64,000 nucleotides of DNA from Cyanobacteria bacterium FACHB-DQ100 (GTDB lineage: Bacteria > Cyanobacteriota > Cyanobacteriia > Leptolyngbyales > Leptolyngbyaceae). The notes under the pieces were generated by a model that saw only the letters and a program-made list of their open reading frames with translations, was not told the origin of the DNA and did no database searches. Shown here piece after piece: positions 3,957 through 12,010 of the stretch. The stretch covers positions 1 through 64,000 of the forward strand of contig JACJNW010000006.1 of NCBI GenBank assembly GCA_014695195.1, given 5' to 3'. A program made the position numbers and the translations under genes. How positions within the stretch are numbered: the first letter of the stretch is position 1; every line of letters starts with the position of its first letter.

Positions 3957-4057
3957 CTAACAGGCACAACAATATTGCTGCTGAATTGAGCAGTCAGGCA
4001 GCATAAAATACTAGCTTCGATACATTTCCAAAATTCGCAGCTTGCAATTATTTCATT
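3957..4057 (-). other. Degenerate attC-like end of the cassette array
   Basis: Downstream of the DUF4188 stop, the minus strand has TTGCAAGCTGC and, about 70 bases later, GCAGCAATATTG followed by a GTTAGGA core-like box (plus TCCTAAC, 3956-3962). The inner arms can pair. The 5' core box expected at the gene end is missing. It is a weak site, supported mainly by its position at the end of the array. Confidence 0.3.
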
Positions 4058-4544
4058 CCAACGTAGTAGCCGGATTTGAACTTTCTACCAATCGACTCCG
4101 CGCTGAATCTCTACGACCGGATATGGGTACAAGTTTACCTACTTCGCCTAAACCAAAAGGTGGCATACCGCTATATATTGCTTCGTACTCCCCGGCTCGA
4201 ACTTTATAGGTTTCGTGCCAAATTCCTACATCACCTCGGCTATTGCTAAGGCGCTTATTGAAATTTACCCATGCTGGCCAATGCTCCTTATCCCTACTTC
4301 GTGCATATGCCTCTAAAGCTTCAAATGAACGCCAATATTGCACTATCACAGGTATTCCCGCGATATGGCCGAGAAAACCACTGTTTGGATCGGCTTGCAA
4401 TTCTTTGATCATTCGAGGCATTGCCAGAAAAACTGGTAGCCACTTATGAACTTTCCAGATCTTGTTAATACGCATACCAATTAGGAAGATGACAAACTCA
4501 CCTTCAACTTCGGCTGTCATTCTTTCTGGAATTACCTTTGCCAT
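4053..4544 (-). CDS. DUF4188 domain protein
   Basis: A 163-residue protein of unknown function. The start is set at the ATG ending at 4544, because GGGAGG lies eight bases upstream and the protein then begins [20 protein letters not shown], as in DUF4188 proteins. Conserved features include [17 protein letters not shown], a [13 protein letters not shown] segment, [10 protein letters not shown] and a Tyr-rich ending near [13 protein letters not shown]. The fold is thought to be a dimeric alpha-beta barrel related to haem-binding monooxygenase-like proteins; that is family-level inference. It is the last cassette gene of the attC-bounded array, and its R' core box lies 50 bases upstream of the ATG. 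Confidence 0.78.
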
Positions 4545-4593
4545 AATTGCCTCCCTATGAGAATTACACCAAAATGTGAGGATTGGATTAAGT

Positions 4594-4694
4594 CCATAAC
4601 GATTCGCTTGAGCGGCTAGAAATAACCTTGAACTCAGCATCAGCAATTTTTGGCAGTCTGCTCTAAGCGAATTGTTAGAAGCGAATTGTTAGAT
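4594..4694 (-). other. Integron attC site after the haemoglobin cassette
   Basis: Read on the minus strand, the site runs from ATCTAAC (plus 4688-4694) to GTTATGG (plus 4594-4600). The arm CTAACAATTCGCTTAGAGC pairs almost perfectly with GCTCAAGCGAATCGTTATG at the other end, with the small mismatches typical of attC. The 5' core and arm are tandemly duplicated (TCTAACAATTCGCT twice, 14 bp). Counted from the inner core the site is 87 bp. The outer core ATCTAAC is exactly complementary to the GTTAGAT box that begins the haemoglobin cassette (plus 5135-5141). Confidence 0.8.
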
Positions 4695-4727
4695 GTCGTT
4701 TAAGAGATGTTGTTTAAGCACCTTGAC

Positions 4728-5102
4728 TTAGCGATTTAGAACATCATCGCGATGAGATTTAGAGCCTACAATTTGCACGACTTCATCAATTAGAACTTGA
4801 GGAACCTCCAACTCAACTAGAGTTGCGACTAAATTTTCCGCGATCGCATTGAAGTGGCTGTCGGTCAAACCCATTTCAGCCACTAATTGTTTATGTGCGT
4901 CCCTCATAGGACGACCGTTCCAGTGTTGAGCACCACCAAAAGCGTAGGTCATAAATTCTTTTTGGTGGTGCTTCTGTTGCTGCATATCTGTATGAGCGAA
5001 AAAGTGCTGAACCCGCTCATCCGCCAAGACTTTTTCATAAAACTTTTCTACAGCTAGATCAACAGCCGTTGCACCACCAAGCTTTTCGTACAGTGTACTC
5101 AT
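4728..5102 (-). CDS. glbN: Group I truncated haemoglobin
   Basis: A 124-residue 2-on-2 haemoglobin very like cyanobacterial GlbN. The start is the ATG ending at 5102, with GGAGG about eight bases upstream, giving MSTLYEKLGGATAVD. The proximal haem ligand is His70 in RDAH, the distal His46 is in KHHQKEF, and the conserved YAFGG follows. His117 in SKSHRDD matches the residue that in the Synechocystis protein forms a covalent bond to haem. Such proteins bind O2 or NO and protect against reactive nitrogen. Unusually, this copy sits in an attC-bounded cassette: a GTTAGAT core box lies 33 bases before its start and a clear attC lies after its stop. Confidence 0.93.
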   Translation of the reverse strand: MSTLYEKLGGATAVDLAVEKFYEKVLADERVQHFFAHTDMQQQKHHQKEFMTYAFGGAQHWNGRPMRDAHKQLVAEMGLTDSHFNAIAENLVATLVELEVPQVLIDEVVQIVGSKSHRDDVLNR

Positions 5103-5134
5103 GGAAGATTCCTCCAACCGGGTTTTGAATCTAG

Positions 5135-5141
5135 ATCTAAC
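5135..5141 (-). other. attC R' core box before the haemoglobin gene
   Basis: GTTAGAT on the minus strand marks the junction where the haemoglobin cassette begins. The rest of the attC of the preceding cassette is not intact: the MITE at 5181-5282 lies where its 5' half would be, and removing the MITE places a normal-sized (about 85-95 bp) site between here and the GNAT stop. The box is complementary to the haemoglobin cassette's own core (plus 4688-4694). Confidence 0.5.
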
Positions 5142-5180
5142 ACGAGGTAGACGAGAGTGCGCAAAGTTTTTAATTGTCTG

Positions 5181-5282
5181 ATACCAGATTGATTTGTGGA
5201 TGCGACAGATTCTCGCCCCCTAAATCCCCCAGAATGGGGGACTTTGAGTATGATCTGTCGCATTCTATACTTAATTCGGTAT
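5181..5282. mobile_element. MITE-like element, 102 bp
   Basis: The ends form imperfect 30-base terminal inverted repeats. The left arm starts ATACCAGATT and ends ATGCGACAGAT; the right arm is ATCTGTCGCAT through to AATTCGGTAT. The centre holds the G/C-run core CCCCCTAAATCCCCC followed by GGGGGACTTTGA. There is no coding capacity, so it would need a transposase in trans. It lies inside the cassette array, between the truncated GNAT and haemoglobin genes. The same core occurs in the element at 10273-10455, which has different ends. Confidence 0.7.
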
Positions 5283-5336
5283 GAGAATTTTAAAGCGAAT
5301 ACTCGAAATTCATTTGTCTTAATAGTTGACTGATGC

Positions 5337-5657
5337 TCAGTCAATGTCGGCAAAGTGACGTGTACGGAGATATGAACCTGATTCAGCGCGAATCATTCCG
5401 ACAATTCCACCATCAACTTCTGCAACTAGACAAAGATTGCCTGGGCACACTTGGTCTCTATTGATTGCAGCTTGTTCATCTTCAACAGTCGTAATCAGCT
5501 CTGTGGGTTTCGCTAATGGATAGAATTCCTCTTCGACAATTGAGCGAAACAGGCTCAATGTAGCAGTTGCATCTTCTAGCGCAGCACTCCGAATGGTAAC
5601 TTCTGTCTCATCCGCTAAAAACTGTGTCGAGGCTTGTAAGATCGCCTGCAGCACCAC
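5337..5657 (-). pseudogene. Shortened GNAT acetyltransferase
   Basis: A reading frame of 106 codons that matches only the N-terminal half of a GNAT acetyltransferase: VTIRSAALEDATATL at the front, then CLVAEVDGGIVGMI. It stops at HFADID, where family members normally continue (typically SLWV and the acetyl-CoA binding loop). The acetyl-CoA loop (Q/R-x-x-G-x-G/A) is therefore missing, so activity is unlikely. The start is also uncertain, since only GTG codons precede the conserved part and they overlap a degenerate attC. Both ends appear to have been lost through cassette or MITE rearrangement. Confidence 0.6.
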
Positions 5658-5700
5658 AAACGGCTTCGGTCAATCCGCTGCAACAGAGTTGTGATGCCGC
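5650..5700 (-). other. Degenerate attC-like sequence
   Basis: Downstream of the 237-residue gene the minus strand reads GCATCACAAC, TTGCAGCGGA, CCGAAGCCG and GTTTGTGG. The TTGCAGCGGA arm resembles TCAAGCGGAC of the good attC at 8626-8707. The spacing (about 50 bp) is shorter than the 82-87 bp of the good sites. It is probably a decayed attC. Confidence 0.3.
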
Positions 5701-5734
5701 ATACCTACTCTTATATAGAAACTTTGCACATCTA

Positions 5735-6448
5735 CTAATATCTGAGCGAAAATCGTTGTACTTCATCAGCAACTTCTTTGCGTAAATTCATCAGTTTAAG
5801 CCCATCTAGCTCTTGCCACACTATATTGACAGGCATTAGCACACCTTTATTTACGCTAATAATGGGGTACTCACAGCCTGGATAGTCCTTTCTGATAACC
5901 CAGTGACCTTCTACTCTACGCCGTATAACCTCTCCCACATATGCGACTAGATTGTCATATAGTTCGGCTTGAACTTTTTCAAGTTCATAATCCTCAGCTT
6001 TGCTAGATAAAAGGTCTAAACTTTTGTATGAGAAGTCTAGCTGATTAGGCGAAATATCCAAACATCTTACTAGCTCGTCAATTAATTCACAAATTTTGTT
6101 AACGAGTTGTACTCGGTGTTTTGAATAATACATCCAATGACTTACAGAGCTATCGCGACCATTGGCATAGTCTTCTCTAACCTTCTGTGTCCATCGAATC
6201 ATTCGCAAAAAATGTTCTTTGGAATAAACATTACCTCTGCCAGGAATTACAATTCCTTTGGGGTCAAAAACAAATAGAAATCTATCATTCGATAGCTCAT
6301 AGACTTGAGGCTGATTCTTATGTCCAGTTCCATAAGTTTCCTCAAAGAAATCTGTAAATTCTTCATGCAGTCTCCCCTCAGATTCTATTAGTTCTTGAAC
6401 CTGCTTTTTTGTGAGTCGTTTTGAATTGAGAGATTTTCTCTTTCCCAT
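5735..6448 (-). CDS. Hypothetical protein in cassette array
   Basis: A 237-residue soluble protein I do not recognise. The N-terminus is very basic (MGKRKSLNSKRLTKKQ). The middle is aromatic and charged (FVFDPKGIVIPGRGNVYSK), followed by helical segments that contain SHWMYYSKHRVQLVNKICEL. No membrane segment, zinc motif or nucleotide-binding loop is visible. The start is the only ATG near the conserved-looking N-terminus; the ribosome binding site is weak. It lies between a good attC (6629-6713) upstream and a decayed one downstream, so it is probably the gene of its own cassette, as usual for cassettes of unknown function. Confidence 0.7.
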   Translation of the reverse strand: MGKRKSLNSKRLTKKQVQELIESEGRLHEEFTDFFEETYGTGHKNQPQVYELSNDRFLFVFDPKGIVIPGRGNVYSKEHFLRMIRWTQKVREDYANGRDSSVSHWMYYSKHRVQLVNKICELIDELVRCLDISPNQLDFSYKSLDLLSSKAEDYELEKVQAELYDNLVAYVGEVIRRRVEGHWVIRKDYPGCEYPIISVNKGVLMPVNIVWQELDGLKLMNLRKEVADEVQRFSLRY

Positions 6449-6628
6449 CTTCAGAGCAAAACAGATTTAAGTAATAGCTTCAGTCAAGAACAGAGAGGTA
6501 AAACATCATACAAGAAGCAATCGCTTCATTGCCACGCTCGTAGCATATCCTTACCGACGACCTACTATTAACTTAACCTTAAATATCGGTGTGTAAGCTT
6601 TCGCTTGCATTCCCACCGGAGCTAAGCG

Positions 6629-6713
6629 GCATAACGGACTCGTTCACCCGCCGCTAAAGCCTCTCAGACTCAACAAGACTCAATACAGGCGGTGTGCAAT
6701 GAGCTTGTTAGAC
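6629..6713 (-). other. Integron attC site after the histidine kinase cassette
   Basis: Read on the minus strand it runs from GTCTAAC (plus 6707-6713) to GTTATGC (plus 6629-6635), 85 bp. GTCTAAC fits the RYYYAAC core exactly and contains the kinase stop codon TAA. The arm GCTCATTGCACACCGCC pairs with GGCGGGTGAACGAGTCC, leaving bulged bases as in attC folding. GTCTAAC is also the exact complement of GTTAGAC, the box at the start of this same cassette (plus 8626-8632). That is the expected relation when a cassette is excised as a circle. Confidence 0.82.
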
Positions 6714-8564
6714 ATCATCATAGATTTTCTGCTGGACAGGGATTTGAATGATAAACTCTGTTCCTTCGCCAGGTGTAGAAAAGCAATCTAACTTACCTCC
6801 ATGTTTCTCAGTGACAATCTGATAGCTAATCGGCATCCCCATACCCGTGCCCTTACCGATCGTTTTCGTGGTAAAAAATGGATCAAAAATTCGCTTGCGA
6901 ACCGATTCAGGCATCCCTGTTCCGTTATCGGATATGGCAATTTTTACCCACTTTGAATCAATTCTGGAAGTCCGAATCGTAATTTGGCTGGGCTTTTCCT
7001 TAATTTCCAGATAAGTTCGTTTAACGTTAGCTTCTTCCAGCGCATCAATGGCATTTGCCAAGATATTCATAAATGCCTGATTGATTTGACCCGGATAGCA
7101 CTCCACAAGCGGCAAACTGTCATAGTCACGAATGACTTGAATCGCTGGGCAATCCGATCGATCTTTTAAGCGATGCTGCAAAATCAACAAGGTACTGTCA
7201 ATCCCTTCATGAAGATCAACCGCTTTAAAGTCGGCTTCATCAATGCGTGAGAAGTTGCGGAGCGACAAGACAATCTTGCGAATGCGATCGGTACCCAACT
7301 TCATAGAATTCAGGATTTTGGGTAGATCGGTTTGGACAAACTCTATGTCCAGCTCGTCTGATGCGGCTTGAATTTCGGATGCTGGGTCGGGATAGTGCTT
7401 TTGATAGAGCTGCACAAAAGCTAATAAATTGTGGGCGTATTCCTGCACAGGGGTCAAGTTGCCGTAGATGAAGTTGACTGGATTGTTGATTTCGTGGGCT
7501 ATCCCTGCCACCATTTGTCCCAAAGCAGACATCTTTTCGCTTTGCACCATCTGCACTTGAGTGTGTTGCAGTTCTTTTAGAAGTTGTTGCAACTGCGTAT
7601 TTTTATCGTTGAGTTCTTGGGTTCTTGCCTCAACTTGAGATTCCAGCGTTTGGCTATAGGCTTCTAGCTGTTCGTTAGCTGTTTGCTGCTGCTGTAAAAG
7701 TTGTTGAACAGTGCGAATTAATTGGTTAAAGGCATCGGCAAGGGTACCAATTTCATCATTTTGCTCGACAGTCGCTTGTAGCTCAAAGTTAGACTCTTCA
7801 GTGGATTGTCGGGCAATGCTGGTAAGAGCTTGAATCGGTTGAGCGATCGCTCGGCTGGTAAACATTGCCAAAAGAATGGCGATCGCAGCAGATAATCCAA
7901 CACCCGCAACCACTACTTTCTGGGCAATTTCACCTGCTTGCTGTTGTAACAGAGCTGCTTCTTCAAATTCTTCGTAGGCTTGGTCAAGTAAGCCTACCAA
8001 ACTATCTGAGATGCCATCGAATTCAAGCGCCAAATCGCTGTTGGTAAATGCCAACATTATCCTTTGCGCTTGCTCAACATCATCGGGGAATGCAAGATTC
8101 AGCTGACGAATTCGTTCAACTTGAAGCGCTAATTCCTGGGAGTAGCGCTGGGTCACACCGTCATAGGTTTGCAAGAAAGCTGGAATTGTGGCTTGATGCT
8201 TATCCGTTTGTGGAGCCTTTGCAACAAATGTCTTAAGTTCAGCCCAAATGTCCCGAATTTCAGCTTCGTGCTTCAGCAAATGAGTATACTCATCCTGAAA
8301 CTTGTCTGGGTATTTTGCTAAAGGGATGAGTTGCTGTTGGTGGGTTCGGGCTTGAAGCACACGAGATTGTAGACGCTGTAGAAGCTCCACTTCGTTTCGG
8401 GAGTGTTCTTCTTGCTTTGCAGCCTGGAATTGATAATTATGCCCAATTCCAAAACCAGCAATTGTGCCAGACACAGCAATGCCTAGAGCTAAGGTGTATC
8501 CCAGAGCGATCTTTTGTCCAACTCTGAGGCTGGACAACCTCTGGCTCAGGCTTTGCAACATCAT
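6708..8564 (-). CDS. Membrane sensor histidine kinase in an integron-type cassette
   Basis: A 618-residue kinase: membrane helix at about 18-42, a periplasmic helical sensor of about 170 residues, second helix near 215-237, HAMP domain, and a long Gln-rich coiled coil (about 290-345). A dimerisation/phosphoacceptor domain follows with AHEINNPVNF (His about residue 355), then an ATPase domain with N-box NILANAIDAL, DNGTGMP, FDPFFTTK and GKGTGMGM. It should sense an external signal and phosphorylate a response regulator; none is adjacent. Its stop lies inside the attC core box at 6707-6713, and a second attC lies about 60 bases before its start. A 1.9-kb kinase gene is unusually large cargo for a cassette. 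Confidence 0.88.
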   Translation of the reverse strand: MMLQSLSQRLSSLRVGQKIALGYTLALGIAVSGTIAGFGIGHNYQFQAAKQEEHSRNEVELLQRLQSRVLQARTHQQQLIPLAKYPDKFQDEYTHLLKHEAEIRDIWAELKTFVAKAPQTDKHQATIPAFLQTYDGVTQRYSQELALQVERIRQLNLAFPDDVEQAQRIMLAFTNSDLALEFDGISDSLVGLLDQAYEEFEEAALLQQQAGEIAQKVVVAGVGLSAAIAILLAMFTSRAIAQPIQALTSIARQSTEESNFELQATVEQNDEIGTLADAFNQLIRTVQQLLQQQQTANEQLEAYSQTLESQVEARTQELNDKNTQLQQLLKELQHTQVQMVQSEKMSALGQMVAGIAHEINNPVNFIYGNLTPVQEYAHNLLAFVQLYQKHYPDPASEIQAASDELDIEFVQTDLPKILNSMKLGTDRIRKIVLSLRNFSRIDEADFKAVDLHEGIDSTLLILQHRLKDRSDCPAIQVIRDYDSLPLVECYPGQINQAFMNILANAIDALEEANVKRTYLEIKEKPSQITIRTSRIDSKWVKIAISDNGTGMPESVRKRIFDPFFTTKTIGKGTGMGMPISYQIVTEKHGGKLDCFSTPGEGTEFIIQIPVQQKIYDDV

Positions 8565-8625
8565 AGAGCTTTCCCAAGCTATACAAAGAATCTTTATAAA
8601 TTTAAGATTCCCACCTTTCTTACCG

Positions 8626-8707
8626 GTCTAACGACTTGAATCGGGGGCGGCACATAGTCCCAAGTTCAGTACCAGCGACTTGCAATCGTCCGCTTGATTT
8701 GTTATGG
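8626..8707 (-). other. Integron attC site after the RibD/DHFR-like cassette
   Basis: Read on the minus strand the 82-bp site runs from CCATAAC (plus 8701-8707) to GTTAGAC (plus 8626-8632). The left arm AAATCAAGCGGACG is very close to the usual attC L box; the right arm is CGCCCCCGATTCAAGTC just before the GTTAGAC core. The stop codon TAA of the upstream gene is inside CCATAAC. Length and layout match the sites at 4594-4694 and 6629-6713. Confidence 0.82.
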
Positions 8708-9247
8708 GGCATTCCCAATTACCTCATATTTACTTTGCACCAAGCCGTTTTCAAACTGTCGCGTTTCGAGATGATGCAATTTGACATCGTGAGGAAGCGA
8801 ACTAAAAAGTGGAATCCCTGTACCTATAAGAATTGGCACTTTAGTAATGATTAATTGCTGGATCAAGCCTTCACGAAGAAACCCTTGGATCGTCTTTCCC
8901 CCATCAATGTATAAATGCTTGAATCCACGCTCTGATAAACGGTGAACTACTTCTTGTGGAGGCGCGCAGAGGGCCTCGACTGTTCTTGCAATGTCACTAG
9001 GGATGTCTACTTTCCGACTACTTAGAACAAATACAGCCTTTGCACCATAAGGCCATGAATCAAAGGACAATGCTAACTCGTAAGTATTCCGACCCATGAC
9101 AAGCGCATCTACTGAATCTATGAATTCCTGATACCCGTAGTCTTCTTCGCCCTCTACATCTTCCCCACTGGGCAACCAATCAATATCACCGTTCTTCCGT
9201 GCGATGAAGCCATCAATACTTGTTGCGATGTATACAGTAGTTTTCAT
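8702..9247 (-). CDS. RibD C-terminal/dihydrofolate reductase-like protein
   Basis: A 181-residue NADPH-dependent reductase-fold protein (RibD_C, distantly related to dihydrofolate reductase). Visible features are VYIATSIDGFIAR at the N-terminus, DALVMGRNTYE, KAVFVLSSR, the nucleotide-binding stretch YIDGGKTIQGFL and PILIGTGIPLF. The substrate is unknown; family members reduce pterin- or pyrimidine-like compounds. The gene ends inside an attC core (8701-8707). A GTTATAC core-like box lies 25 bases before its start (plus 9272-9278), which makes it a complete one-gene cassette. Proteins of this family are frequent integron cargo. Confidence 0.87.
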   Translation of the reverse strand: MKTTVYIATSIDGFIARKNGDIDWLPSGEDVEGEEDYGYQEFIDSVDALVMGRNTYELALSFDSWPYGAKAVFVLSSRKVDIPSDIARTVEALCAPPQEVVHRLSERGFKHLYIDGGKTIQGFLREGLIQQLIITKVPILIGTGIPLFSSLPHDVKLHHLETRQFENGLVQSKYEVIGNAP

Positions 9248-9882
9248 GCCTTCCTCAACAATGCGATCGCCGTATAACTATTTATTACACGGAAATTTTC
9301 GGCACATTATCCCAGGTTGGCTGACCATATAGAGTTTTCTCTGTACAGCCCACCGTTTTGTGGTGACATGCAGAATTCTTTCCGTATAGTATGCTCCTAC
9401 AGACGAACACACAGAAAATTTCAGCCATATTCCATACATACTCGAAACACTTTCTCATTTGTATCCTTCGTCAAGGTAAAAGAATTCTAAAAACGATCGC
9501 CACCCCATTTTCTAAATTGCCGTTACTACAACGCTGCTCGATCGTCGTCTCCAAACGTGACTTCATTAGTTGGCAATTTCCCCATTCAAGATTTCAACTT
9601 TCTCATTTCGATTCGCCATATCCAAAATCAAGTTGAGCAATTACATGATTTAGTTTTGGAATTGCTCGATCGAGTTAAGAAATTACTGAATCAAATTGAT
9701 AAGTTTCGCTTTTGAGTTCTAAAACTTCTCAACTCGATTAAGCATCAAAACGCTTAATGGGAAGTTTATATTTCTGCTTTGTAGATTAAGACTTGATAGA
9801 GACACAAGCACGATCAAACAATTTCTCTTCCTCCAAGGAATGTTGAATCTATTCAACTTAACTTTGTGGAGGGTCATCTACA
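9248..9882. other. Gene-poor stretch at the head of the cassette array
   Basis: It begins with the GTTATAC core-like box (minus strand, 9272-9278) that would mark the 5' end of the first cassette. I see no integron integrase on either strand; open frames here are short and unlike any known family. One 52-codon frame (see 9557-9715) is possible. The rest is A/T-rich, and a GGAGG at 9867-9871 serves the gene starting at 9883. Confidence 0.5.
9557..9715 (+). CDS. Possible small helical protein
   Basis: A 52-codon frame beginning at GTG, with an amphipathic helical second half (QVEQLHDLVLELLDRVKKLL). No clear ribosome binding site precedes it, and the frame stays open upstream without an ATG. 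It may be a remnant of a larger gene. Confidence 0.25.
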   Translation: MTSLVGNFPIQDFNFLISIRHIQNQVEQLHDLVLELLDRVKKLLNQIDKFRF

Positions 9883-10272: not shown

Positions 10273-10455
10273 GCCTACCCTATACCCACATCTCTTTCCC
10301 GCTTCGTTGTCATCAGCTTCAGCCCCCTAAATCCCCCAAATTGGGGGACTTTGAACCCAGAGTTTTGGATCGAAGTCCCCCATTCATGGGGGATTTAGGG
10401 GGCGAAAGATCTCAGCAATCACAGACCAATCAACTTGTGTGTATAGGGTAGGGCA
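10273..10455. mobile_element. MITE-like element, about 183 bp, with long internal hairpin
   Basis: Ends are inverted repeats: GCCTACCCTATACCCACA at the left and TGTGTATAGGGTAGGGC at the right. Inside is a near-perfect palindrome of about 40 bases per arm, CCCCCTAAATCCCCC... pairing with ...GGGGGATTTAGGGGG. Each arm itself contains the CCCCC/GGGGG core shared with the 102-bp element at 5181-5282. No coding capacity is visible. It lies between a helical-protein gene and the 3' end of the M48 protease gene, where the hairpin could also act on transcript ends. Confidence 0.7.
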
Positions 10456-10495: not shown

Positions 10496-12010
10496 TTATT
10501 GAGTACGATCGCGCTTCTTATCCTGTTTGTAGGCTTTCAACAATTGATTCACTTTGCTTTGAATCGCTTTGTGCTGCTCAACACCCTCGTAGGCGTAGCG
10601 ATTGTATCCCGTTGTGGTAATCAATTCTGCAAGATAGTTCACGCGATCTTGCGGTAACGGGTGCGAAGCTAACCAAGTTGGGGGATTACCTCGCCGCTCT
10701 TCTTCCTGTTGTTTTCGCAGCGTCACCATCAGATTGTGCAAGCCATCCGCAGCATAGTTCGTTGATGCCAATAACCGAGTGCCTAAAACATCCGCTTGGC
10801 GCTCCATTTCACGGCTGTAGCTCAAAACGGTAATATCTGTGAGCAATCCGCCGACATAAGGAATGAACTGCGTTAAGTTTGCCGTGAGCGTGCCTTCGGT
10901 GATCAACTGGAAACTATGAGACAGCACCGCATGAGCAATCTCATGTCCAAGCAGTCCCGCAAGTTCGGCTTCGGAATTCGCTTTCTCGATCGCTCCCGCA
11001 TTCACAAACACTTTCCCACCCGGAAGCGCAAACGCATTTAACTTATCATCCAGAACCACCTGAAATTCATACTTGAAATCATCGCGCCCAGTCGCCGCCG
11101 CCAGTTTTTGTCCTAATGCAGTGACATAATCATTCACCTCTTTGTCTTTCACGAGAGCAAGCTGTCGTTTCGCTTGACCTGAAATACGATCGCCCACGCT
11201 CGATTCTCCCCGCAGGAGCAAAGCTGTACTTTGTACCGCATTCAAAGGGCCAAATAAACTGCCAGTTAGCGCATAACTCAATGCACCCGTGAGAATTCCG
11301 CCGATTAGATTTCCTCGCAATCGGGCGCGGAGTTCTGCTTGATAGCGTTTCTGATAATCATCGGCAAGCTTAGTAAATTCGGTCTTTTGCGGATGATCAG
11401 GATTCAGGATCGTGAACTGTCGAGCCGCGATCGAGGCCTCAATCCATTTCTCATTGTTCGCATATGCTGCAACTTTCGCTTTAATCAGATCGGGCTGATT
11501 TGGAAATTGAGTCGCCGCTTTTTCTAAAACAGTAAGCGCTTGCTCCTTTTTGCCGTACTTTTCGAGGGCTTCTGCATAGCGCAACTGTCCTGGAATAAAT
11601 TGCGGGTAATTCTTCACCAACAATTCCAAAGGCACGAAAATGCGAGTCTCTAAATTTTGCGCGAGTCCCGCTTCTGCTTCACGCCAATAAACTTTGCCAG
11701 CGGGGGAAAGCTGTTCGGGATCAGTAATAACTTCCTGGTTTTTGGCTTCTGTGACTTCTGTAAAAGCAGGCTTCACTTCCCGATAGAGTCTCTCTGCTTG
11801 GGCGTTGTCGCCTGCTTTATACAATCGATCAGCTTCAATTAACTTTTTCTCGCGCTCCGAAAGCTCAATCGAGTTCGCTCCGGGTGGAGCCGTTGCCGTA
11901 GCAGAGAGAGCAAAGACGATCGGGCGAGCCAGAAACAAAATCGCACAACAAAGGATGACGAACCTTGGAAAAGCAGAGCGAAACAGTTTTCGCAAACCTT
12001 GCTTCTTCAT
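10496..12010 (-). CDS. M48 family metallopeptidase with TPR-like N-terminal region
   Basis: A 504-residue exported or membrane-anchored zinc protease. The start is the ATG ending at 12010: GGAG lies six bases upstream, and the protein begins MKKQGLRKLFRS with a hydrophobic segment (about 15-35). Residues 55-220 are helical and TPR-like (YKAGDNAQAERLYREV, YGKKEQALTVLEKA). The catalytic motif HEIAHAVLSH is near residue 355, and the third zinc ligand is the Glu in SREMERQAD. M48 enzymes such as BepA act in envelope protein quality control; the same role is inferred. The gene follows the hisA cluster in the same direction. Confidence 0.9.
   Translation of the reverse strand: MKKQGLRKLFRSAFPRFVILCCAILFLARPIVFALSATATAPPGANSIELSEREKKLIEADRLYKAGDNAQAERLYREVKPAFTEVTEAKNQEVITDPEQLSPAGKVYWREAEAGLAQNLETRIFVPLELLVKNYPQFIPGQLRYAEALEKYGKKEQALTVLEKAATQFPNQPDLIKAKVAAYANNEKWIEASIAARQFTILNPDHPQKTEFTKLADDYQKRYQAELRARLRGNLIGGILTGALSYALTGSLFGPLNAVQSTALLLRGESSVGDRISGQAKRQLALVKDKEVNDYVTALGQKLAAATGRDDFKYEFQVVLDDKLNAFALPGGKVFVNAGAIEKANSEAELAGLLGHEIAHAVLSHSFQLITEGTLTANLTQFIPYVGGLLTDITVLSYSREMERQADVLGTRLLASTNYAADGLHNLMVTLRKQQEEERRGNPPTWLASHPLPQDRVNYLAELITTTGYNRYAYEGVEQHKAIQSKVNQLLKAYKQDKKRDRTQ

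Follow-up and report, generated by a model that had tools for sequence, protein, structure and literature searches.

Sedentary chromosomal integrons are located in the chromosome and carry varied cassettes, and the core motif of the non-classical attG sites is a GNT triplet. Clusters of attC sites lacking an integron-integrase are known as CALINs, with a minimum of two attCs, and 93% of the complete integrons in the survey concerned came from Gammaproteobacteria (PMC9024848). In Cyanobacteria, the integron-integrase gene intI is known (PMC2426708) and an attC covariance model has been reported (PMC8352920), while integration at attG sites is attributed to Loot 2024, as cited in PMC12444791 and PMC12901181. 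Among the literature matches listed, none dealt with CALINs or scattered attCs in the cyanobacterial family studied here, as judged by title and abstract opening.

The window, that is, the whole stretch of 64,000 nucleotides analyzed in this work, corresponds to C6:1-64000 of a draft genome that comprises 44 contigs and 5.5 Mb. An initial annotation had proposed a cassette array of the CALIN category in this DNA, and our results make it very probable that the array is indeed a CALIN, an integrase-less cassette array in the chromosome: it contains three clustered attCs (two or more being required), same-strand genes in the attC orientation that end just upstream of these sites, and no integron integrase was found in the draft genome. 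The intI gene that would define a complete integron was likewise not found in this draft; it is possible that it resides on a replicon missing from the 44 contigs.

Identification of the attC sites

The covariance model used (R2) was seeded with 14 attCs from the vicinity of intI in seven further cyanobacterial genomes, all outside the window's genus; these were obtained by a crude core-and-arm scan of the DNA around integrases and then picked by eye. The seeds share a common R''-L''-L'-R' anatomy, with compensatory changes in 9 of the 15 predicted pairs. When applied to the window, R2 detected three attCs within 4.1 kb, on the same (minus) strand as the genes, with E-values between 1.4e-13 and 1.4e-5, which are rough because the calibration was short. 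Beyond the four matches in the array, only 11814-11891 (E 1.1) appeared at E<=10. A model of our own thus returns attC hits where they had been proposed; an Rfam scan of the window matched nothing.

The site downstream of the globin gene, attC3 (4594-4680, minus strand; 64.3 bits, E 1.4e-13), has a nearly perfect outer stem and an R'' box that is duplicated up to 4694, so the span 4594-4694 initially assigned to it holds as an attC at 4594-4680 plus the second copy of the box. The site of the kinase cassette, attC2 (6629-6713, minus strand; 49.1 bits, E 7.7e-10), is largely sound. All three sites had been described as well formed and all three match R2, but attC1, belonging to the RibD_C cassette (8626-8707, minus strand; 31.8 bits, E 1.4e-5), is decayed, with five bases missing in L'' and several arm pairs broken. 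It aligns over its full length with an intI-near attC of G185 (L033 11301-11388). R'' and R' cores and covarying arms with extrahelical bases are present in the window sites, in attC1 partly, given its broken pairs, and the sites can be aligned with attCs found near intI in G185, G060 and other genomes. In agreement with the earlier mention of further decayed sites, a truncated attC consisting of the R''/L'' half was found at 5640-5697 (minus strand; 16.3 bits and E 0.099 for 5596-5697). In a comparison with 27 sites, this half-site matched the attC at C19:100834 of its own genome (82% identity over 44 bases, E 1e-7); it runs on into an acetyltransferase-like fragment. Its R'' core, GCATCAC, is one base off the complement of the start of the ORF237 cassette, GTTATGC, and it probably belongs to that cassette.

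In the crude core-plus-arm scan run before the model, the site at 4594 ranked first (score 14.0) and that at 6629 second (10.0), compared with maxima of 9.5-10.0 in three Markov-shuffled windows; as the best shuffled score equals that of 6629, only 4594 stands above chance by this measure. The site at 8626 was not among the matches listed. R2 separates both 4594 and 6629, and the crude scan was set aside as a detector, being good for collecting seeds and weak on decayed sites.

Unconstrained DNA folding of the attC bottom strand (here the plus strand) gave -14.3 kcal/mol for attC3, with an extrahelical base in the stem and a z of -2.5 relative to shuffles; the expectation of stable bottom-strand folds is therefore borne out clearly at 4594-4680 but not at 6629-6713 (z -0.31) or 8626-8707 (z 0.93). 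The four attCs of the sister genome G392 reached z -1.66, -0.73, -1.29, and -3.37, and two intI-near control sites gave -0.35 (L033:11301) and -1.84. Folding energy decides little in this context because the intI-near control L033:11301 is also no better than shuffles. The assignment of attC2 and attC1 as putative attCs rests on homology, anatomy, and position.

Genes of the array

The six minus-strand genes initially reported are present. A core GTTATAC at 9272-9278 (minus strand) is the probable start of the first cassette, as judged from the sequence, and the same core precedes the same gene in G392. This gene encodes a reductase with a RibD_C domain (8702-9247, minus strand; PF01872, E 2e-16) and is followed by a sensor histidine kinase of 618 aa (6708-8564, minus strand; PF02518, E 2e-23, and PF00672, E 1e-7). 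Both genes end inside a core box, as had been noted: the kinase stop (6708-6710) lies in GTCTAAC and the RibD_C stop (8702-8704) in CCATAAC, both R'' cores. The core at which the kinase cassette starts, GTTAGAC, complements the R'' core of that same cassette, as initially noted. Elsewhere in the same genome (L203, C34:243305-243389), an attC also follows another histidine kinase gene, whose product shares 56% identity with the window kinase over 286 residues.

The third gene, ORF237 (5735-6448, minus strand), is an orphan cassette gene with no relatives in Pfam, NCBIfam, PADLOC, plasmids or viral contigs, and it was found in 1 of the 58 genomes searched, namely its own. It is followed by the acetyltransferase-like gene fragment (5337-5657, minus strand), which was named by eye, matched no Pfam or NCBIfam family and is 76% identical over 89 residues to G392 L201. 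The bacterial-like globin gene (4728-5102, minus strand; PF01152, E 9e-18) comes next, and a monooxygenase af470-like gene (4053-4544, minus strand; PF13826, E 4e-41) is the last of the array; beyond it R2 detected no attC at E<=10. The haemoglobin (globin) cassette had been credited with the same core signature as the kinase cassette, a claim that is not sustained: there is no attC ahead of the GTTAGAT at 5135-5141, and the corresponding bases in G392 are GTCGCAT, with homology continuing upstream of them. This "core" is probably a chance occurrence, since no attC precedes it and it is not conserved in G392.

Upstream of the globin gene a repeat of ~109 bp is inserted (5177-5285, no strand assigned), which corresponds to a gap in the G392 alignment. 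The element is MITE-like, has at least 23 further copies in the genome and is absent from G392 at that place. A second repeat of ~178 bp (10274-10451), with copies in this and other genomes of the genus, is also missing from G392 at the corresponding position.

attC sites across the genome

When R2 was run on the whole genome, 30 places were detected at E<=10, 150 of the 1316 first-look candidates having been scored. At E<=0.01, 24 attCs remained, which fall into 17 places when sites within ~4 kb are joined, the window array being one of them. These sites are associated with genes: 19 of the 24 are preceded by an ORF of at least 80 aa on the same strand, versus 362 of 4000 positions drawn at random from these loci and 4 of 24 in the opposite-strand control, an ORF being counted when its end lies from 100 bases before the site to 12 bases into it; five attCs have no such upstream ORF. 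Judged by eye from their translations, the cassette genes include methyltransferases, a patatin-like protein, a short-chain dehydrogenase, HNH-like and PIN-like proteins, and another kinase. Over 26 attC matches of the genome, the pairs of the model form in 88.3% of the cells, against 27.9-41.8% with slid partners, a figure that leans toward the model because the alignment was fitted to it. The agreement seen at the kinase cassette reflects a general tendency: the comparison of cassette starts with the complement of their own R'' yielded 135 matching bases, with a shuffle mean of 116 and none of 10,000 shuffles as high, and the last four core bases are identical in 14 of 21 neighboring attC pairs, these pairs being drawn from nine arrays chosen by the author and not from all at hand.

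Comparison with the sister genome

Genome G392 is 90-94% identical to long segments of the window region and carries a related array (L184) in the order RibD_C, attC, kinase, attC, acetyltransferase (PF13302), attC, globin, attC, monooxygenase. This syntenic copy therefore has attCs between its genes, as expected for a cassette array, and its four attCs enclose a different cassette between kinase and globin than in the window. The homology breaks after a stretch of 170 bases that is 97% identical and ends with the GTTAT of the attC2 R' core; past this point the window has ORF237 and G392 its acetyltransferase, and homology resumes upstream of the globin gene. The break at the R' core indicates that the difference between the two species is one of cassettes at an attC core, and that it arose after their split. 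This difference could reflect a gain in the window genome, a gain in G392, a loss in one lineage or an exchange by homologous recombination with another array.

The array is flanked on one side by a gene for a TRAP solute-binding protein (DctP family) and on the other by a small gene and the gene of an M48 peptidase. Its borders are bracketed at ~3868 and between 9272 and 9579, and neither is an attI or an attC. In G392 (L184 10364-10513, C164) the DctP gene beside the array is a fragment of ~50 residues. In three other species of the genus (G388, G389, and G391), DctP and M48 share a contig and are separated by other sequence, and at E<=1 this interval gave no attC in G391 (L185), G389 (L186) or G388 (L187); in G386, where DctP and M48 fall on separate contigs, no attC was found in the 12 kb after DctP. 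The simplest reading is an insertion common to the window genome and G392, and absence in the three species could also represent loss there. A search of genome contigs with the DctP protein gave 570 loci; among 80 of these, many of them short, the closest named match was Myxacorys almedinensis (87%), and there was no match to M48 or to an array gene except for kinase-like matches in two (L154, L175).

The same interval holds other genes in two of these species. In G391 (L185 5605-8118) a transporter-kinase fusion of 837 aa lies between the flanks, its kinase part being 66% identical to the window kinase, a likeness that may be coincidental because this kinase matches many in the genus. In G389 (L186 5689-10110) other genes are present that appear restriction-modification-like by eye, so the place is variable in the genus.

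Integrases and attCs in the genus, family, and phylum

Integron integrases were searched with profile TIGR02249 in 386 genomes of the phylum, the window genome included. Matches at E<=1e-30 were obtained in 41 of them, 22 above the curated cut-off of the family. Even at E<=0.001, where 14 of 14 control genomes were positive, the window genome gave no match, and a same-genus IntI found one generic match in it (28%, E 0.009). The genome has ten PF00589 matches, and the eight that were compared with IntI are at best weakly similar to it (best 40% over 42 residues). The initial remark that no integrase is seen thus holds for the whole draft as searched.

The sister genome had no intI match at E<=1e-20 either, and same-genus IntI revealed two clear fragments in it, C96:34836-35000 (58%, E 1.6e-13, with two stops) and C177:1104-1193 (60%, E 6.5e-6), and two weak ones, in C81 (56%, E 0.04) and C80 (47%, E 1.0); its other IntI matches are of low identity and look like other recombinases. 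The C96 fragment is ~200 bases from a homolog of the acetyltransferase-like fragment of the window. In G389 some 650 kb separate the two flanks of the G391 intI; in the window genome both were found, on two contigs, and a deletion scar could not be defined because this neighborhood is rearranged between species.

At the family level, R2 detected attCs at E<=0.01 in 36 of 39 genomes (the window genome included), including every one of the 24 family genomes, at 3 to 90 sites per genome; a further family genome outside the 39 (G289) also has attCs. An IntI match at E<=1e-20 was present in 17 of the 24 family genomes, 15 of them above the cut-off, and in none of the following: the window genome, G392, G393, G395, G399, G401, and G406. 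Six of the seven other genomes of the genus have such a match. In G397 and G400 only IntI fragments are present and in G391 the frame is broken. G403, assembled as one contig, has 90 attCs, with large arrays at ~320-359 kb, 2.607-2.641 Mb, and 3.561-3.605 Mb, each adjoining an intI gene or fragment; the remaining 22 are elsewhere, in 17 places. On this contig (G403:C1, 5.3 Mb) many sites in the three arrays have identical scores and a spacing of ~308 bases, suggestive of copied cassettes of a single kind. Across the 386 genomes of the phylum, at least 89 contain attCs at E<=0.001; together with the IntI matches at E<=1e-30 this gives 32 genomes with both, 57 with attCs only and 9 with IntI only, the attC counts being lower bounds because only 11 candidates per genome were scored, under stricter filters.

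Origin of the array

That the palindromes are not attCs, and represent chance or terminator-like inverted repeats between ordinary genes, is very improbable. Such an explanation would account for the two of three sites that fold no better than shuffles and for the crude-scan score of 6629, which is not above the best shuffled one; it is opposed by the E-values of the model, the gene-order statistics, the circle signature of the cassette starts and the breakpoint in the core. The best reading is that the array is an ordinary CALIN in a genus that has integrons, with a cassette change since the split from G392. On the history proposed here, cassettes would have entered as circles through IntI-catalyzed recombination at attC sites, the array would have arrived with the common ancestor of the window genome and G392, and at least one further change of the kind that IntI makes would have occurred at attC2 after these genomes split. 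Both attC1 and the attC of ORF237 are decayed, and of the acetyltransferase-like gene a fragment is left. As no integron integrase was found here and only fragments in G392, the array would now be immobile unless an integrase acts in trans.

Two origins are compatible with a CALIN, and each may be entertained at somewhat below an even chance. The array may have started with the landing of a cassette at an attG site, carried out by an integrase located elsewhere in the cell or passing through, and then grown at its attCs, and the scattered single attCs may have arisen likewise. The distribution of 24 attCs over 17 separate places of the genome, the DctP-M48 interval without attC in three species of the genus and the sites found off the large arrays of G403 (22 of 90) are consistent with this scheme; the last gene, however, has no attC, and rearrangement can also scatter the pieces of one array. 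A comparable weight is given to the possibility that the array is a piece of a larger sedentary integron that was broken up by chromosome rearrangement and remained after the loss of intI. The intI fragments of G392, two clear and two weak, and the separation of the G391 intI flanks in G389 (~650 kb) and on two contigs in the window genome point in this direction, although the genes flanking the array are linked in G388, G389, and G391 with no attC between them, and the place is not a known intI locus.

Relation to known systems

The array is a real CALIN, known and ordinary in kind. What places it above routine is the cassette difference at an attC core of an integrase-less array, in a family in which scattered attCs are common. 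The presence of attCs in all 24 family genomes, and of a cassette difference between sister species in an array without integrase, makes it a testable question whether CALINs still exchange cassettes or are dead remains. It is conceivable, though rather unlikely, that the family has a genome-wide cassette system, not limited to a single array, in which many integrase-free attC places over the chromosome are not fossils and still gain and lose cassettes through short-lived integrases acting in trans.

Like the sedentary chromosomal integrons, the window array is chromosomal and has varied cassettes; unlike them, it is without intI, short, and one of 17 attC places. Its attCs are of the same type as those of cyanobacterial chromosomal integrons, the difference being that no integrase was found in the window genome. 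With the CALINs as defined in PMC9024848 the array shares co-oriented attCs (at least two), cassette genes and the lack of intI; it is no different in kind from them, and the comparison with G392 adds a cassette difference at one attC core.
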